NCBI GenBank assembly: GCA_902826635.1
Contig: CADEFQ010000005.1
Span: 1-64,000 of the forward strand
Length of the DNA stretch: 64,000 nucleotides
Direction of reading: 5' to 3'
DNA from: an uncultured Pseudomonadota bacterium
Lineage (GTDB): Bacteria; Pseudomonadota; Gammaproteobacteria; Steroidobacterales; Steroidobacteraceae
Below are positions 42,603 through 52,022 of this stretch, piece by piece. A program made the translations under genes and the position numbers. Position 1 is the stretch's first letter. The number at the start of each line of letters is the position of its first letter. The notes under the pieces are model-generated. The model saw nothing but the letters and a program-made list of their open reading frames with translations, did no database searches and was not told the DNA's origin.

Positions 42603-43805
42603 CTACCGCGCCGGGGCCGCCCACGCCATGCGCCACAGCCCCCAGCCCGCCAGCGCACCGCCGAGCGAGCCGAGCGCGAGCAAGAGCAGCGAGCCGTGCA
42701 GGGCGGGCACGACCAGCCCCATCGTGGCCGCGGCGATCATGATCGCGACGAAGGCCTGCACGGACGAGACGGCGCCGCGCGTGTCGGGAAACAGGTCGAG
42801 GAGGCGCAGCGTGAGGACCGGTGACACCACCTGCACGCCGAACGCGACCGTGAAGATCAGCAACTGCTGCACGAAGATCGGCACCGGCGCGAGGAAGGCG
42901 AGCGCGGCGCTCGAACACAGGCCGCCGGCCGCGGAGATCAGGTAGCCGGTCTGGCACTGCGCACGCGCGGTGATGCGGCCCGCCATCCGCCCGGAGGCAA
43001 AGGCACCCGCGACAAAGCCGCCGATCACCGGCAGGAACAGCACCGCGAACTGCGTCTCGCGGTAGTGCCAGCGCTCGAGCACGATCGCGGGCGCCGCACC
43101 GATATACGCGATCACCGACGAGAAATGCAGACCCGACGCAAGCGAGAGCAGCAGGAACTCGCGATGGCTCGCGATCCGCCACGAGTGCGAGATCAGCGAA
43201 CTGAACTGGAACGCAAAGCGCCGCTCGGGCGGGTGCGTTTCCGGCAGGCGCCACCAGCTGACGAGCGCGATCGCGAGCCCGAGCAGCACGAGGAAAACGA
43301 ACACCGCACGCCAGCCGAACGCAACGTGCACCCAGCCGCCGATCACGGGCGCAATCGCCGGCGCGAAACCGAACAGCATCGTGATCAGCGACATCAGCCG
43401 TTGCGCCTCGTGGCCCGAGTAGAGGTCGCGCACGACGGCGCGGGCGACCACCATGCCCGCGCCGGCAGTGGCGCCCTGCATCACGCGAAAGGCGAGCAGC
43501 ATGCCGAAGTCCGGTGCGAGCGCGCAGGCGAGGGAGGCGAGCGTGTAGAGACTCACGCCGACGAGGATCACGCGGCGGCGCCCATAGGCGTCCGACAACG
43601 GCCCGTGCAGCAGCATCGTGAGTCCATAGGGCACGAGATAGGCCGTGAGCGTCTGCTGCAGCTGCAGGCTCGTGAGCGAGAACTCCTGCGCGATCGCCGG
43701 GAACGACGGAAAGAACGTGTCGAGCGAGAACGGGCTCACCATCGACAGGAAGGCGAGCAGGGCCGCGAGCCCCAGCGTCGGGCGGGGATCGGGTTGGTGC
43801 GTCAT
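42603..43805 (-). CDS. Bcr/CflA-type MFS drug-resistance transporter
   Basis: A 400-residue permease with 12 membrane segments. Motif A is GPLSDAYGRRRVILVGV, and the loop FRVMQGATAGAGMVVARAVVRDLY is typical of the Bcr/CflA subfamily of drug/proton antiporters. Its ATG overlaps the trpA stop as ATGA (43802-43805), so it is translationally coupled to the tryptophan operon. That context is unusual and raises the possibility that it exports tryptophan, an indole derivative or a related compound. This is inference. Confidence 0.87.
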   Translation of the reverse strand: MTHQPDPRPTLGLAALLAFLSMVSPFSLDTFFPSFPAIAQEFSLTSLQLQQTLTAYLVPYGLTMLLHGPLSDAYGRRRVILVGVSLYTLASLACALAPDFGMLLAFRVMQGATAGAGMVVARAVVRDLYSGHEAQRLMSLITMLFGFAPAIAPVIGGWVHVAFGWRAVFVFLVLLGLAIALVSWWRLPETHPPERRFAFQFSSLISHSWRIASHREFLLLSLASGLHFSSVIAYIGAAPAIVLERWHYRETQFAVLFLPVIGGFVAGAFASGRMAGRITARAQCQTGYLISAAGGLCSSAALAFLAPVPIFVQQLLIFTVAFGVQVVSPVLTLRLLDLFPDTRGAVSSVQAFVAIMIAAATMGLVVPALHGSLLLLALGSLGGALAGWGLWRMAWAAPAR

Positions 43806-44593
43806 GCAGTCCCGGGCCGCAGCGCGCGCAGCCACGCCGCCGGGTCCTCGCCGCGCTCGAGCACCTCGACGAGCGCCGAGCCGACGACCACGCCGTCGAC
43901 ATGACCGGCCAGGCGCGCCACCTGCTCGCGCGAGCGGATGCCGAAGCCGGCGCACACCGGCACCCGCGACACCGCGCGCACGCGATCGAGATACGCCATC
44001 ACCGCTTCGGGCACGGCGACATTCTTGCCGGTGGTGCCGGTCATCGTGACGGCGTACACGAAACCGCGACTCGCGCCGCAGACCTGCGCGAGGCGTTCGG
44101 CGGTCGTGACCGGCGTCGCCATCTGCACGAGTGCGATGCCGCGCGCGTCGAGCGCCGCCGCGAGCTCGCCGCCCTCATCGAACGGCAGGTCGGGGACGAT
44201 AAAACCTGCGACGCGCGCGCGCTCCGCCGCCGCCGCGAGATCCGCATAGCCGAACGCCAGCAGCGGATTGAGATAGCTCATCAGCAGCAGCGGCGCCTCT
44301 ACCTGCGGCATCGCCGCGAGCTCATCCAGTATCCAGCGCAGCGTCACGCCTTGCGCGAGCGCACCGCGGCTCGAACGCTGGATCGTCACGCCGTCGGCCA
44401 TCGGATCGGTGAACGGCACGCCGATCTCGACGACGTCCGCGGCGCCCGCGACCGCGGCGAGCTGCGCGCGGAACGCTTCGCGGCGCGGATAGCCCGCCGT
44501 CATGAACGCGACCAGCGCGGGCCCCTGCGCAGCCGCCGCGCGGATCGCCGCGCTGATGCGCTCGTGCGGCGCGGTGGTGGTGGCGACCGTCAT
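43802..44593 (-). CDS. trpA: Tryptophan synthase alpha subunit
   Basis: A 263-residue TIM-barrel enzyme that cleaves indole-3-glycerol phosphate to indole and glyceraldehyde-3-phosphate. Catalytic Glu lies in DVVEIGVPFTDPMADGVTIQ and Asp in GFIVPDLPFDEGGEL, with the phosphate-binding GFGIRSREQ near the C-terminus. It overlaps trpB by ATGA (44590-44593) and the MFS gene by ATGA at the other end. Upstream in-frame sequence belongs to another frame of trpB and is not part of the gene. Confidence 0.96.
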   Translation of the reverse strand: MTVATTTAPHERISAAIRAAAAQGPALVAFMTAGYPRREAFRAQLAAVAGAADVVEIGVPFTDPMADGVTIQRSSRGALAQGVTLRWILDELAAMPQVEAPLLLMSYLNPLLAFGYADLAAAAERARVAGFIVPDLPFDEGGELAAALDARGIALVQMATPVTTAERLAQVCGASRGFVYAVTMTGTTGKNVAVPEAVMAYLDRVRAVSRVPVCAGFGIRSREQVARLAGHVDGVVVGSALVEVLERGEDPAAWLRALRPGTA

Positions 44594-45855
44594 GGTCGTG
44601 CCCCCAGGGCGCCCGCCTCGATCTGCGCGATGAGCGTACGCTGCAGCGTCGGCATGTCCTTGTCTCCGCGGCCCGAGAGCCCGATCAGGATCCGCTTGCC
44701 CGGATGCGCCGCGGCCCAGCGCCGTGCGCCGGCGAGCGCATGCGCGCTTTCGAGCGCGGGCAGGATGCCCTCCGCTTCGCAGCATTCCTTCACCGCAGCG
44801 AGCGCCTCGTCGTCGCTCGCCGTTTCGTAGCTCACGCGCCCCGCGGCCTGGAGCAAGGCATGCTCGGGACCCACGCCGGGATAATCGAGCCCGGCCGAAA
44901 TCGAATGCGTTTCCTGGATCTGCCCGTGCGGATCCTGCAGCAGCAGCGAATACGCTCCCTGCAGCACGCCGGGACGCCCCAGCGCGAGCGTCGCGGAATT
45001 CTCGCCGAGCGCGCGACCCCGACCGCCCGCCTCGATGCCGACGATCTCGACCGCGGCATCCGCGATGAACGGATGAAAGATGCCGATCGAGTTCGAGCCG
45101 CCGCCGACGCACGCGATCAGTACGTCGGGCAGGCTGCCGGCGCGTGCGAGCATCTGTTCGCGCGCCTCGCGGCCGATGATCGTCTGCAGTTCGCGCACGA
45201 GGTAAGGATACGGGTGCGGCCCGATCGCGGAGCCGAGCAGGTAGTACGTGCCAAGAGGATCGGCGACCCAGTCGCGCAGCGCTTCATCCACCGCCGCGCG
45301 CAGTGTCTTGTCCCCTTCGGTCACCGGGACGACTTCGGCGCCGAGCAGGCGCATGCGACCGACGTTCGGCGCCTGGCGCTCCATGTCGACCGCGCCCATA
45401 TAGACCGTGCAGGGCAAACCGACGCGTGCGCAGGCCGCGGCGCTCGCGACGCCGTGCTGGCCCGCGCCGGTCTCCGCGACGACGCGCGTTGCGCCGAGGC
45501 GCTTCGCGAGCAGCGCCTGGCCGATCGCGTTGTTGATCTTGTGCGCGCCGGTGTGCGCGAGATCCTCGCGCTTGAGCCACACGTCGGCGCCCCAGCGCGC
45601 GCCGAGGCGTCGCGCGTGCGTGAGCGCGGTCGGGCGCCCGACCCAGCTGTGCAGCTCTTCGGCCAGCTCGCGCTGGAAGTCGGGGGCGTGCAGATGCGCG
45701 CGCAGACCCGCCTCGAGGCGCTCGATCGCCGGTATCAGGGTTTCCGGGACATAGCGCCCGCCAAACGGCCCGAAGCGCCCGCGCGCATCCGGGAATTTTC
45801 CCGCGATCGAGTCGGCCAGCAGCCGCTTGCGATCGTGAACCATCACCGATGACAT
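44590..45855 (-). CDS. trpB: Tryptophan synthase beta subunit
   Basis: A 421-residue PLP enzyme. The PLP lysine is in REDLAHTGAHKINNAIGQAL, and GGGSNSIGIFHPF binds the PLP phosphate. FGGRYVPETL starts the family region. It joins indole with serine to make tryptophan, with indole channelled from TrpA. GGAGAG precedes the ATG at 45855. It begins 3 bases after trpF. Confidence 0.96.
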   Translation of the reverse strand: MSSVMVHDRKRLLADSIAGKFPDARGRFGPFGGRYVPETLIPAIERLEAGLRAHLHAPDFQRELAEELHSWVGRPTALTHARRLGARWGADVWLKREDLAHTGAHKINNAIGQALLAKRLGATRVVAETGAGQHGVASAAACARVGLPCTVYMGAVDMERQAPNVGRMRLLGAEVVPVTEGDKTLRAAVDEALRDWVADPLGTYYLLGSAIGPHPYPYLVRELQTIIGREAREQMLARAGSLPDVLIACVGGGSNSIGIFHPFIADAAVEIVGIEAGGRGRALGENSATLALGRPGVLQGAYSLLLQDPHGQIQETHSISAGLDYPGVGPEHALLQAAGRVSYETASDDEALAAVKECCEAEGILPALESAHALAGARRWAAAHPGKRILIGLSGRGDKDMPTLQRTLIAQIEAGALGARP

Positions 45856-45858
45856 CGT

Positions 45859-46467
45859 TCAGCTCTCCCGGCAGGCGACCCGCGCCGCTGCCACGAATCG
45901 TGCGATCTTCTCCGCACTCTTGATACCCGGCGCCACCTCGACGCCGCTCGACACGTCGACCCCAAAGGGCCGCACCGCGCGAATCGCGGCGTCGATATTG
46001 GTCTCCGTGAGACCGCCCGCCAACACAAGTTCGAGGCCGCGCGCGCGCAGCGCCGCGGCGCCCTGCCAATCCGGGATCACGCCCGCGCCGCTGACCGGCC
46101 CTTCGAACAGTGCGCGCAAAGGCAGCGGCAGTGCCGGATCGACGGCGGCGCGCAGCACCGGCAGGCGCTCGAGGCTGGCCGGAAGATCAAGGGACGCGAA
46201 ATCCCCGGCATCGGCCTGCAGCACATCGGGGCGGAATTCGGCGAGTACGGCGGCCACTTGATCGGGATCGGGATGCTGCATCACCGCCACACAGCGCAGC
46301 CGACCGCGCGCCGGCGCGGCGAGCCTAGCCGCCTGCGCGGGCTCGAGGCGACGCACCGACGGCGCGAACACGAAACCAAGGGCATCGGCGCCCGCATCGA
46401 GCGCACCCGCGACCGCCTCGGGCGTTGTCGCGCCGCAAATCTTCACCCAGAGCGTCGCCTTACGCAT
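45859..46467 (-). CDS. trpF: Phosphoribosylanthranilate isomerase
   Basis: A 202-residue TIM barrel. It has WVKICGATTPEAVAGALDAG at the start with the catalytic Cys, the catalytic Asp in LQADAGDF, and the phosphate-binding VDVSSGVEVAPGIKSAEKI at the end. The start at 46467 is the first ATG that begins the family N-terminus; a GTG at 46491 is possible. The 5' end overlaps trpC by 8 bases. It is encoded as a separate gene, not fused to trpC as in enterics. Confidence 0.93.
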   Translation of the reverse strand: MRKATLWVKICGATTPEAVAGALDAGADALGFVFAPSVRRLEPAQAARLAAPARGRLRCVAVMQHPDPDQVAAVLAEFRPDVLQADAGDFASLDLPASLERLPVLRAAVDPALPLPLRALFEGPVSGAGVIPDWQGAAALRARGLELVLAGGLTETNIDAAIRAVRPFGVDVSSGVEVAPGIKSAEKIARFVAAARVACRES

Positions 46468-47332
46468 CGGTTCGCCGTCCGGCGCGGGCACTGCGTCCCG
46501 CCGCCAGCATGTCGCGCAACAGCTCGCCGGGCGCCGCGGTTTTCATCAGCGCACTGCCGACGAGCGCGAGCTGATAGCCCGCCGTCGCCATACGCGCCGC
46601 GTCCGCCGGTGTGTCGAGGCCGCTTTCCGCGACGCGCGGCAGATGCCGCGGCAATCGTGGCGCGAGCGCCTCGAGCCGGCCCGGCACGATCGCGAGCGTC
46701 GCGAGATCACGGCAATTGAGCCCGATCAGGATCGGCGCCGTCGGGCTCGACGGGGGGTCGCGCGACGCGCCCGACTGACCGGCGATCTCGCCGGCGAGAT
46801 CGAGGTCCGCTTCGTCGAAAGCCTCGAGCAGCACGAAGAGCCCCAGCGCGGCCGCGGTGCTGAGGAGCGCCGCAATCTCCGCGCGCGACAGCATTCGCAG
46901 GATCACGAGGACGCCGCCTGCGCCCGCGAGTCGCGCCTCCATCACCTGGTAGGGGTCCACGAGGAAATCCTTGCGCATCACGGGCACGCGCGTGCCCGCG
47001 AGCGCGCCCGCGGCCAGCACGAGATGCTGCAGCGAGCCGTCGAAGCGGCTCGGCTCGGTCAGCACCGACACGGCGGCCGCGCCGCTCGAGGCATACGCCC
47101 GCACGCGCGCCGCGATGTCTTCGCTCTCCGCCGCCCGCAGCGCTCCCACCGCGGGCGAGCGCAGTTTCATTTCGGCGATGATGTCGAAACCCTGCGCCGA
47201 CAGCGCGAGCTTCGGCGGCACGGGCGACGCGAGTACGCGCCGCTCCACCATTTCGCGTGGGCACGCAGCGATGGCGCTGCGCACGCGCGCGTGGCTCGAG
47301 GCCGCCATCGCCGCAAGAAAGTCCTCGGTCAT
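46460..47332 (-). CDS. trpC: Indole-3-glycerol phosphate synthase
   Basis: A 290-residue TIM-barrel enzyme. The N-terminal part carries AEMKLRSPAVGAL with the catalytic Lys. SVLTEPSRFDGSLQHL, VMRKDFLVDPYQV (second Lys) and GLNCRDLATL follow, with RVAESGLDTPADAARM near the C-terminus. It ring-closes CdRP to indole-3-glycerol phosphate. The start overlaps the trpD stop by ATGA (47329-47332), and it is followed by trpF with an 8-base overlap. Confidence 0.95.
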   Translation of the reverse strand: MTEDFLAAMAASSHARVRSAIAACPREMVERRVLASPVPPKLALSAQGFDIIAEMKLRSPAVGALRAAESEDIAARVRAYASSGAAAVSVLTEPSRFDGSLQHLVLAAGALAGTRVPVMRKDFLVDPYQVMEARLAGAGGVLVILRMLSRAEIAALLSTAAALGLFVLLEAFDEADLDLAGEIAGQSGASRDPPSSPTAPILIGLNCRDLATLAIVPGRLEALAPRLPRHLPRVAESGLDTPADAARMATAGYQLALVGSALMKTAAPGELLRDMLAAGRSARAGRRTDA

Positions 47333-48363
47333 GGCGACATCGTCGCGGCACGCGGTGTGCCCTTCCGGGCGAGCCCCTCGAGCACGCGTCGCGCGCGCCC
47401 GTCATCGATTGCAGCTGCCGCGCACGCGATGCCGGCACGAAGCGTCGGCGCACCACCGATCAGCTCGAGCGCGAGCCCCGCGCCGAGTGTCAGCGCATCG
47501 CGCAGCGCACCGCGATCCTCACCGCGCAGCGTGCGCGCCAGCAACGCCGCATTGTGGGCCGCGTCCTCGCCCGCCAGGGCCGCAGCCGCACAGCGCGCGA
47601 GGCCGGCCTCGACCGGATCACACACGGTCTCGACCACCTTGCCGGGGCGCACGTCGAACAGCTGGAAGGCGCCGACCGGCGTCGGCTCGTCCCATCCCTC
47701 GGCGCCGTGCACGACGAATGCGCGCTCGATCGGCATGCCGGCCAGCGTCTCCGCCATCAGCCGTGCCACCGCCGGGCTGTAGGCACCAATCAGGTGAAAG
47801 GCAGGCTCGGCGGGGTTCATCAGCGGGCCGAGGATGTTGAAGACGGTGCGGACGCCGAGCGCCACGCGCACCGGCGCGATCGCCTGCATCGCCGGGTGAT
47901 AGTGGGGTGCGAAGAGGAAGGTGAAACCGCAGGCTTCGAGCAGCGCGCCCGCTGCGCGCTCATCGACCGGCAGCGCAAGTCCGAGCGCTTCAAGCACATC
48001 CGCGCTGCCGGCGCGGCTCGAGACGGAGCGGTTGCCGTGCTTCACGACCCGCACCCCGCAGGCCGCGGCCAGCAGCGCGCTGCCCGTGGAAATATTGACG
48101 CTGCCCGAGCGATCGCCTCCCGTACCGACGATATCGAGTGTCGGCGTGCCGGGCGCGATCACCGGGCGGCGCGCGCGCGCGCGCATGCCGAGGGCAAAGC
48201 CGCGCAGTTCGTTAGCCACGACGCCTTTCGCCTGCAGCGCGGCGAGCAATGCGCCTGCGGCCGCGGGTGGCGTCTGCGGATCGGCAAGCACTGCGAGCAG
48301 CGTGCCTGCGCTGTCCTCGTCGAGGTCCTCCCTGTCGATCAGTCGTTGCAGCAAGTCACGCAT
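47329..48363 (-). CDS. trpD: Anthranilate phosphoribosyltransferase
   Basis: A 344-residue enzyme. PRPP-binding motifs are [20 protein letters not shown] and [20 protein letters not shown], and the conserved [11 protein letters not shown] and VHGAEGWDE segments follow. It transfers phosphoribosyl from PRPP to anthranilate. It overlaps trpG by 8 bases at its start. Length is normal for the family. Confidence 0.95.
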
Positions 48364-48937
48364 GGCGCGCTTTCAGGAAGTTCGCGAGCAACTGCGGGCC
48401 TTCGGGCGTCAGCACGCTCTCCGGATGGAACTGCACGCCTTCAACGTCGAGCCGCCGATGCCGCACACCCATGATTTCGCCCTGCGCCGTGCGTGCGCTG
48501 ATCTCGAGATCGGCAGGCAATGAGGCGGGGGCCGCGATCAGCGAATGATAGCGCCCGACGATGCAGGGCCGTGGCAGGCCCGCAAACAGGCCGCGGCCGT
48601 CGTGCTCGATTTCCGATGTCTTGCCGTGCATCAGGCGTCCGGCGCGCACCACTTCGCCACCGAACACCTCGACGATCGATTGATGGCCGAGGCACACGCC
48701 CAGCACCGGGACCTGCCCCGAAAACGCGCGGATCATCTCCATCGACACGCCTGCATCGCGCGGCGTGCCGGGTCCCGGTGAGATGCACAGATGGGTTGGC
48801 GCAAGCGCGCGGGCCGCGTCGACGCCGATCGCGTCGTTGCGATGCACGATCACTTCCGCGCCGAGCACCATGAAGGCCTGTACCAGGTTGTAGGTGAAGG
48901 AATCGTAGTTGTCGATCAGCAGCAGTCGCACGCTCAC
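48356..48937 (-). CDS. trpG: Anthranilate synthase glutaminase component
   Basis: A 193-residue class I glutamine amidotransferase. The catalytic Cys is in [17 protein letters not shown], and the His-Glu pair is in [13 protein letters not shown]. It starts [16 protein letters not shown], the TrpG/PabA hallmark. It supplies ammonia to TrpE. The start overlaps trpE as ATGA (48934-48937). The protein may also serve 4-amino-4-deoxychorismate synthesis, since no separate pabA is visible in the window. Confidence 0.94.
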
Positions 48938-50319
48938 AAGCCCTCCTCCGCGAGCGCGAGCGCGCGCACCAGCGCGGCGCCCTTGGCACGCGCTTCGTCG
49001 TACTCCGCGTCGGGGTCGCTGTCGGCAACGATGCCGGCACCGGCCTGGAAGCTGTACTCGTCGCCCTTGAACACGAGCGTGCGGATCGTGATCGCCTGGT
49101 CCATGTCGCCCTGCGCGCCGAAGTAGCCGATCGTGCCGCCGTAGAGCCCGCGCCGCACGGGTTCGAGTTCGTCGATCAACTGCATCGCGCGCACCTTCGG
49201 CGCGCCGACGAGCGTGCCCGCGGGGAACGCCGCCGCGAACAGGTCGAACGCATCCCGTCCGGGCGCGAGCGTGCCGCGAACGCCGCTCACCATGTGCATC
49301 ACGTGACTGTAGCGCTCGATCGCCCGGTACGGCTCGACCCGCACGCTGCCGGCATTCGCCACCCGGCCCAGGTCGTTGCGCGCGAGATCGACGAGCATCA
49401 CGTGTTCCGCGTTCTCCTTCGGATCGGCGCGCAGCGCCGCCTCGTGGGCGGCATCGACCTCGGGATCGTCGGCGCGCGGCCGCGTGCCCGCGATTGGCCG
49501 CAGTTGCGCCACACCGCCCTGCAGTCTGACGAGCGCCTCGGGCGAAGAGCCGACCACGGTGTGCTCGCCGAGCCGACAGTAGTAGAGATACGGAGACGGA
49601 TTGATCAGGCGCAGCGCCCGGTACACCTGGAACGGGTCGAGGTCGTGACGCCCGGTGAACTGCGCCGACAGCACGAGCTGGTACACGTCGCCCGCGGCGA
49701 TCGCTTCTTTCGTGCGCCGCACGCCTTCGACGTACTCGCCGCGTGACAACGATGGCGCGGGCGCACTGTGCCTGCCGCGCGCCGCGCCATTCGGCAGCCC
49801 GCCGCGCAACGCACGGACGATTTCGCGCCGCAGTGACTCGCGCTCGCTCTCGGGACCCGCGTGCAGCACGGCGATGCCGCGTGTCAGGTGGTCGAACACG
49901 AGCATCGAGCGCGGCGCGACGTAGTGCATCAGCGGCGTGCCCGCTACCGCGCGCGCATGCGTCGGCAGTTTCTCGAAGTAACGTACGACATCGTAGGCCG
50001 CGTAGCCGACGAGGCCGCCGGCGAGCGGCACGTGCGCGATCTCGGGCTGGGGACGCGCCACGCGCGCGAGCGCACCGCGCAGGCTTGCGAGCAGCGCGTC
50101 GCGGTCCGCCGGCGCCGCGCTGCGCACGCCGTCGATGTAGAGCGCGTCGCTGTCGAGCCGGTACTCGAGGCTGTCGCCGAAGCCGATGAAGGAATAGCGC
50201 CCGAGGCGTTCACCGCCCTCGACGCTCTCGAGCAGAAAGCGCGGCTGGAAGCCACCGAGCTTCATGAACGCCGAAACCGGCGTATCGAGGTCACCTGCTA
50301 TGTCGAAAGTCTTCCGCAT
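48934..50319 (-). CDS. trpE: Anthranilate synthase component I
   Basis: A 461-residue chorismate-utilising enzyme. [20 protein letters not shown] carries the LLES feedback element that binds tryptophan. The catalytic core shows [40 protein letters not shown] and [19 protein letters not shown]. It makes anthranilate with ammonia from TrpG. It is the first structural gene of the operon and lies 31 bases downstream of the attenuator. Confidence 0.95.
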
Positions 50320-50350
50320 TCGCCTTGCCTGCCGCTGTGATGCACGCGCA

Positions 50351-50385
50351 AAAAAAACCCATCGCCGTCAGCGACGGAGATGGGT
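50351..50385 (-). terminator. trp attenuator terminator (3:4 hairpin)
   Basis: On the minus strand CCCATCTCCGTC (50385 to 50374) pairs with GACGGCGATGGG (50370 to 50359) around a 3-base loop, and eight T follow (50358-50351). This is a full intrinsic terminator placed between trpL and trpE. Confidence 0.85.
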
Positions 50386-50456
50386 TTTGCCGTATCGAAA
50401 CCTTGGAAGAGTCTAGAGACTAATCGGTCACGTCAGCGCCCACCCCGTCAGGAGTG
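50374..50456 (-). promoter_or_regulatory. trp leader antiterminator and pause hairpins
   Basis: Region 2, GACGGGGTGGG (50449 to 50439), overlaps the trpL stop codon and can pair with region 3, CCCATCTCCGTC, to form an antiterminator. The same region can instead fold with CACTCC just before the trpL stop (50456 to 50441) as the 1:2 hairpin. Ribosome stalling at the Trp codons would mask region 1 and favour antitermination, so the operon would be read when tryptophan is scarce. Confidence 0.75.
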
Positions 50457-50498
50457 TCGCCACCACCAGCAGCGCGCCGTGTGAACGTGAGCGGTCAT
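50448..50498 (-). CDS. trpL: trp operon leader peptide
   Basis: A 16-codon frame reads MTAHVHTARCWWWRHS and then TGA. Three consecutive Trp codons near the end are the control element of ribosome-mediated attenuation. No ribosome binding site is seen before the ATG, because the predicted transcription start falls on the A of ATG itself. The leader is therefore probably leaderless, as in some alphaproteobacterial trp operons. It lies 129 bases upstream of trpE and ends in the 1:2 hairpin. The frame is far below the size that routine gene finders report. Confidence 0.85.
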   Translation of the reverse strand: MTAHVHTARCWWWRHS

Positions 50499-50504
50499 CG
50501 GATC

Positions 50505-50534
50505 AGTATGGCGAGCGGACCCCCCGACGTCAAC
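50505..50534 (-). promoter_or_regulatory. trp operon promoter
   Basis: TTGACG (50534 to 50529) and CATACT (50510 to 50505) on the minus strand are separated by 18 bases. Counting the last -10 base as -7 puts +1 at 50498, the first base of trpL. It lies in the short gap after the catalase stop codon. Confidence 0.65.
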
Positions 50535-50570
50535 GTTGCGGGGCGGTCCGCCGCCTGTCGGCCGTCGCTG

Positions 50571-52022
50571 CTATGCGTACTCCGACGCCGCGATCCCGAG
50601 CGCACGCGCAACGCCGGCGCCATAGGCCCTGTCCGCCTGCAGGCAGTGGCGAATGTGGCGCAGCTGAATGTCCTTCGGCGCGCCCCCGATGGATCGCGCG
50701 GTGTTCTCGAAGAGCTGCTGCTGCCGGGCGGGGCTCATGAGCCGGAAGAGCGCGCCGGGCTGCGAGTAGTAGTCGGTGTCCACGCGATGATTCCAGTGGT
50801 CCGCAGCGCCTTCGAGCGTGAGCGGCGGCTCGCGGAAATCCGGCTGCTCCTGCCACTCGCCGTAGCTGTTCGGCTCGTAACCGAGCGTACCGCCGTGATT
50901 GCCGTCGACCCGCATCGCGCCGTCACGGTGGTAGCTGTGCACGGGGCAGCGCGCCGCGTTCACCGGGATCAGGTGATGGTTCACGCCGAGGCGGTAGCGC
51001 TGCGCGTCGCCATAGGAGAACAGCCGCCCCTGCAGCATCTTGTCCGGCGAGAACCCGATCCCGGGCACGACGTTCGCGGGATTGAACGCCGACTGTTCGA
51101 CTTCCGCGAAGAAATTTGCGGGGTTGCGGTCGAGCTCCATGATGCCGACGTCGATCAGCGGATAGTCGCCATGCGGCCAGACTTTCGTCAGGTCGAACGG
51201 GTTGTACGGCACTTTCGCGGCGTCCGCTTCCGGCATCACCTGCACCTTGAGCGCCCAGCGCGGCCGGTCACCGCGTTCGATACTTTCGTAGAGATCGCGC
51301 TGGTGACTTTCACGGTCGCGGCCGATCAGCGCTTCCGCCTCGCCGTCGGTGAGATTGCGGATGCCCTGCAGGCTCTGCAAATGGAACTTCACCCAGTGGC
51401 GTTCGTGCTTCGCGTTGAGAAAGCTGAAGGTGTGGCTGCCGAAGCCGTGCATGTGGCGGTAGGTTGCCGGGATGCCCCGATCGCTCATCACGATCGTGAC
51501 CTGGTGCAGCGCCTCGGGCAGCGAGGTCCAGAAATCCCAGTTGTTGCGCGCGCTGCGCAGGTTCGTGCGCGGGTCGCGCTTCACGGCATGGTTCAGGTCC
51601 GGAAACTTGAGCGGATCACGCATGAAGAACACGGGCGTGTTGTTGCCGACGAGGTCCCAGTTGCCCTCTTCCGTATAGAACTTCACGGCGAAACCGCGGA
51701 TGTCGCGCTCGGCGTCCGCCGCGCCGCGCTCGCCGGCGACCGTGGTGAAGCGGGCGAAGAGTTCGGTCTTCTTGCCGATCTGCGCGAAGATCCTCGCGCG
51801 CGTGTATGTCGTGATGTCGTGCGTGACCGTGAACGTGCCGTAGGCGCCGGAGCCCTTGGCGTGCATGCGCCGCTCCGGGATGACTTCGCGACCGAAATGC
51901 GCCAGCTTCTCGAGGAACCATACGTCCTGCAGCAACTGCGGCCCCCGCGGCCCCGCGGTCAGCACGTTCTGGTTGTCCGCGACCGGACAGCCGGCGTTCG
52001 TCGTCAACTTCTTCTGGCTCAT
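50571..52022 (-). CDS. katA: Monofunctional haem catalase (small-subunit type)
   Basis: A 483-residue catalase of the small-subunit type. The distal His is in [12 protein letters not shown], the distal Asn in [11 protein letters not shown], and the proximal haem-ligand Tyr in [14 protein letters not shown]. It starts [20 protein letters not shown] and has no signal peptide, so it is cytoplasmic. It decomposes hydrogen peroxide. A palindrome containing ATAG-N7-CTAT lies upstream, compatible with OxyR-type control. The gene ends about 37 bases before the trp promoter. Confidence 0.93.

Follow-up and report, generated by a model that had tools for sequence, protein, structure and literature searches.

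A probable ribosome-mediated trp attenuator with a predicted leaderless or nearly leaderless trpL in the gammaproteobacterial order Steroidobacterales

The window analysed here, 64,000 nucleotides of contig CADEFQ010000005.1 (positions 1 to 64,000), belongs to a 3.2-Mb genome assembled in 92 contigs. Among named relatives, Steroidobacteraceae MAGs come closest, with a TrpE 93% identical, which agrees with the gammaproteobacterial-type genome proposed in a sequence-only reading of this DNA. On the minus strand, trpEGDCFBA form one contiguous cluster, in which trpE, trpG, trpD, trpC, and trpF were assigned by family search and trpB and trpA by reading the ORF translations. With 461 amino acids, the window TrpE is short. 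Its scores do not reach the curated cut-offs set for the NCBIfam TrpE models, and gammaproteobacterial TrpE proteins from outside the order share only ~40-50% identity with it. A catalase gene on the same strand ends at 50571, 72 bases upstream of the leader. Directly upstream of the trp genes lies a short ORF with tandem Trp codons, the mark of an attenuator. As had been read from the letters, this trpL has 16 codons and carries three consecutive Trp codons, at 50468-50460. The features of the locus are listed in Table 1.

Table 1. Features of the trp leader region and operon in the window
Feature	Position	Strand	Description
Sigma-70-type promoter	50505..50533	-	-35 TTGACG at 50533-50528, 17-base spacer, -10 CATACT at 50510-50505
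Predicted +1 and trpL ATG start codon	50496..50498	-	Start predicted from spacing; without Shine-Dalgarno
trpL leader ORF	ATG 50498 to TGA 50448	-	Encodes MTAHVHTARCWWWRHS followed by the stop; homologous WW/WWW leaders in relatives
Region 1	50456-50451	-	CACTCC
1:2 protector hairpin	50439..50456	-	CACTCC with GGGGTG; overlaps the trpL end; from folding
Region 2	50439..50449	-	GACGGGGTGGG; pairs with region 3 as antiterminator
Region 3	50373..50384	-	CCCATCTCCGTC
Region 4	50369-50358	-	GACGGCGATGGG
Intrinsic terminator	50350..50389	-	3:4 hairpin and T8; eight T at 50357-50350
trpE	48934..50319	-	First structural gene; TIGR00564 E 2.8e-141, under the curated cut-off
trpG, trpD, trpC, trpF, trpB, trpA	43802..48937	-	Contiguous, mostly overlapping

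The promoter in front of trpL is the sole sigma-70-like match between 50000 and 51000, where 0.1 was expected from shuffled sequences. Both boxes of the promoter claimed in the sequence-only reading, TTGACG and CATACT, are present, although the spacer is 17 bases and not the 18 given there. On the minus strand, six bases (GATCCG) separate the -10 box from the ATG, a gap that the window shares with most of its congeners, and this spacing predicts the transcription start on the A of the trpL ATG. The pattern TTGAC-N17-19-ATACT-N6-9-ATG occurs at two sites in the whole genome and its reversed control at none; when the ATG is omitted, the pattern occurs at four sites. The only other site with an ATG (G000:C28:40480-40518, L229) precedes a 111-codon ORF, which reads like an ArsR-type regulator and is a candidate for a further leaderless gene. 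An imperfect inverted repeat (GCGGACC-GCCCCG / CGGGGG-GTCCGC, 50515-50552) spans the -35 box. None was seen in congeners by eye, and the repeat could be an operator or a terminator of the catalase gene that has no T run.

Folding of the window sequence gave a 2:3 antiterminator and a 3:4 terminator that exclude each other, plus a local 1:2 hairpin directly after the Trp codons. Thus, all three pairings that had been proposed for an attenuator here were found, and the terminator is indeed followed by the eight T described before. The 2:3 pairing of the window copy had a z score of -2.9.

The regions upstream of trpE were taken from relatives and searched for Trp-rich leaders. In the same GTDB order, whose sample comprises at least 16 families, 80 distinct loci had a leader and a scored promoter; they are related sequences and not independent observations. 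In 78 of these loci, 6-10 bases lie between the end of the -10 box and the start codon of the leader. Gaps of 6, 7, 8, 9, and 10 nt were found in 21, 10, 27, 15, and 5 loci, respectively, when the first in-frame ATG or GTG after the promoter was taken wherever there were several, a rule that leans to short gaps. The remaining two are loci for which the promoter scan settled on another pair of hexamers; inspected by eye, L158 of these two is compatible with a 10-base gap. The -10 box was CATACT, GATACT, or AATACT in 73 of the 80. About a dozen further loci, mostly of one lineage, escaped the promoter scan; by eye, their layout is related and their -10 box is another one, for example TAGGCT-N7-ATG. 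Since gaps of 8-10 nt are compatible with a 5'UTR of 1-4 nt, the wording that is safe for the whole order is "leaderless or nearly so".

The RNA structures were conserved as well. A terminator was detected in 75 of the 80 loci, and none was found by the same detector in the other five. When the region was taken from the Trp codons onward, so that longer leaders were included, the 2:3 pairing had a median z of -2.43 and ranked 10th of 200 or better against shuffles in 55 of 75 loci. The local 1:2 hairpin gave the same median z over 75 loci (-2.43, Wilcoxon p 9e-14). A long-range version of 1:2, with region 2 paired to the entire leader upstream of it, did not exceed shuffled sequences (median z -0.23) and was rejected. 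The terminator consensus is ACCCATCTCCG...CGGGGATGGGT-T6. Six of its 11 pairs were changed on both sides, a number reached in none of 500 shuffles and by no slid pairing, with the relatedness of the sequences inflating this control. At E<=0.01, a covariance model of the terminator (R1) had matches in 100 of 119 genomes from the order, including some that had supplied model sequences; the window copy, itself one of the source sequences, scored 50.8 bits (E 4.1e-9).

Two leader architectures were recognized in the order. In the short one, to which the window belongs, the stop codon touches region 2, and in the long one region 2 is read within the C-terminal codons of the leader. With either architecture, a ribosome at the stop codon would cover region 2 or would just have passed it. 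The short leaders recurrently end in W-R-x-S-stop, an ending that would fit the coding of the 1:2 arm.

Several explanations of the locus can be weighed against these data. Simple terminators are common, and the upstream gene might have an ordinary one, beside a short ORF that contains Trp codons by chance. This is exceedingly improbable, because the Trp-codon leader, the promoter, region 2, and the terminator are conserved together in front of trpE throughout the order, which refutes a chance origin. It is also conceivable that the attenuator is real and its transcript not leaderless: transcription would start further upstream, from another promoter or by readthrough from the catalase gene, which lies close by on the same strand, and trpL would be translated from an internal AUG. 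We regard this as very unlikely, since the promoter-to-ATG distance holds in 78 of 80 loci and the leader ATG has no Shine-Dalgarno sequence, the -10 box occupying the place where one would be. No Shine-Dalgarno signal was found at the leader starts of the 80 loci, where pairing was weaker than at random positions (the mean pairing energies were -2.25 kcal/mol at leader starts, -3.24 at random positions, and -5.24 at trpE starts).

A transcript with a very short 5'UTR of about 1-4 nt, on which initiation would depend on the 5' end in the same way, is favored by the gaps of 8-10 nt seen in 47 of 80 relatives. For the window we consider it unlikely, as the 6-nt gap there and in most congeners places +1 on the A of the ATG. 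Taken together, the locus is very probably a ribosome-mediated attenuator of trpEGDCFBA on a transcript that is leaderless or nearly leaderless (5'UTR of 0-4 nt), its start being predicted from the promoter. A leaderless trpL with a complete attenuator, as the sequence-only reading had it, is the best reading, and the comparative data support it far better than the single sequence does. To judge from its relatives, ribosome-mediated trp attenuation with this layout appears to be conserved across the order.

In the proposed mechanism, RNA polymerase would begin transcription on the A of the trpL AUG or right beside it, and the 5'-terminal AUG would be bound by a ribosome without a Shine-Dalgarno sequence. 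When charged tRNA-Trp is ample, the ribosome would translate the three UGG codons and proceed to the UGA adjoining region 2. With region 2 covered or kept in the 1:2 hairpin, the 3:4 terminator would fold, releasing a leader RNA of ~148 nt. Under a shortage of Trp-tRNA, we infer that the ribosome halts on the UGG codons and masks region 1; 2:3 would form, and transcription would run on into trpE. Of this scheme, the position of the promoter, the leader ORF, and the three helices with their conservation were observed, and the exact 5' end, the stalling, and the response to Trp are the predicted parts.

The logic is that of the E. coli trp attenuator (Rfam Trp_leader), in which a leader peptide with Trp codons is likewise combined with alternative 1:2, 2:3, and 3:4 pairings. 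In E. coli, trpL is preceded by a 5'UTR that includes a Shine-Dalgarno sequence, and the operon is additionally repressed by TrpR, whereas scoring with family models found no TrpR equivalog in the window genome. The only Trp-repressor-family protein found there scored 67.8 bits as YerC/YecD and 29.1 bits as TrpR, against a cut-off of 67.25. Since this sole match is YerC/YecD-like and not TrpR, the trp operon in this bacterium may respond to Trp mainly through attenuation. The YerC/YecD-family protein is encoded at G000:C8:29930-30175 (L239), and its Pfam family is found widely within the order. An Rfam search of the attenuator region returned no family, Trp_leader included, at the gathering score or at E<=5. 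An older comparative survey of proteobacterial attenuators is reportedly that of Vitreschak et al. 2004.

Leaderless trpL as such is already known. The precedent in rhizobia to which the sequence-only reading had referred is documented for Sinorhizobium meliloti, with support from ribosome profiling (PMC7298713, PMC10117765). The present locus resembles the trpL/rnTrpL/peTrpL system of S. meliloti, also found in Agrobacterium and Bradyrhizobium, in its consecutive Trp codons before trpE and, as far as predicted here, in its ribosome-mediated attenuation, its release of a short terminated leader RNA, and its leaderless start; the likeness is one of layout and not of compared sequences. In rhizobia the trp genes are split among three operons, and trpDC is a trans target of rnTrpL (PMC7298713, PMC7143759), whereas the window has a single contiguous operon. 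In Streptomyces lividans, trpL1 before trpE is a leaderless 18-amino-acid leader, MFAHSTRNWWWTAHPAAH, with WWW and a Rho-independent terminator (PMC8079986). It shares these elements and the leaderless layout (predicted here) with the window and differs in belonging to another phylum and in its monocistronic trpE. In the literature searched, of which the coverage was incomplete and most subscription papers lay outside, no report of a gammaproteobacterial leaderless trpL was found. What appears to be new here is a clean case that extends across a gammaproteobacterial order and whose distinctive RNA sequence is matched by no Rfam family.

If the predicted start is correct, trp attenuation from a 5'-terminal AUG would be the standard layout in a gammaproteobacterial order and not a rhizobial or actinobacterial peculiarity. 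The analysis also defines a clean RNA element beyond the existing Rfam families, and makes it testable whether loading of the sensing ribosome onto a leaderless RNA improves or alters attenuation. The leaderless layout might be under selection across the order because the terminated leader of ~148 nt has a function of its own, as a leaderless mRNA or a small RNA acting in trans. If so, it would parallel rhizobial rnTrpL/peTrpL as an independent system of gammaproteobacteria. We think this quite unlikely; with the trp genes in one operon, the known trpDC rationale for action in trans is absent.

In a class-wide sample, strong matches to the terminator model were confined to members of the order, and all others were weak (E 2.5e-5 or worse). 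Wherever both could be placed, the weak matches outside the order lay on contigs other than that of trpE and were therefore taken as chance. The controls comprised 96 loci outside the order. A Trp-rich ORF of some kind lay upstream of trpE in 20 of them, several being of the WRWR type, and by eye the TTGAC-ATACT-ATG arrangement was seen in none of these 20. Outside the order, two gammaproteobacterial loci (L212, L223) show a WPWR/WRWR leader ORF ahead of trpE whose ATG lies 3-9 nt from a possible -10 box (TACACT, TTTAAT); judged by this spacing, they are perhaps further leaderless trpL genes. One contig (L036) is labeled Klebsiella pneumoniae in the public record and has a Steroidobacteraceae-type trp locus (72% TrpE identity), and this label is probably wrong.
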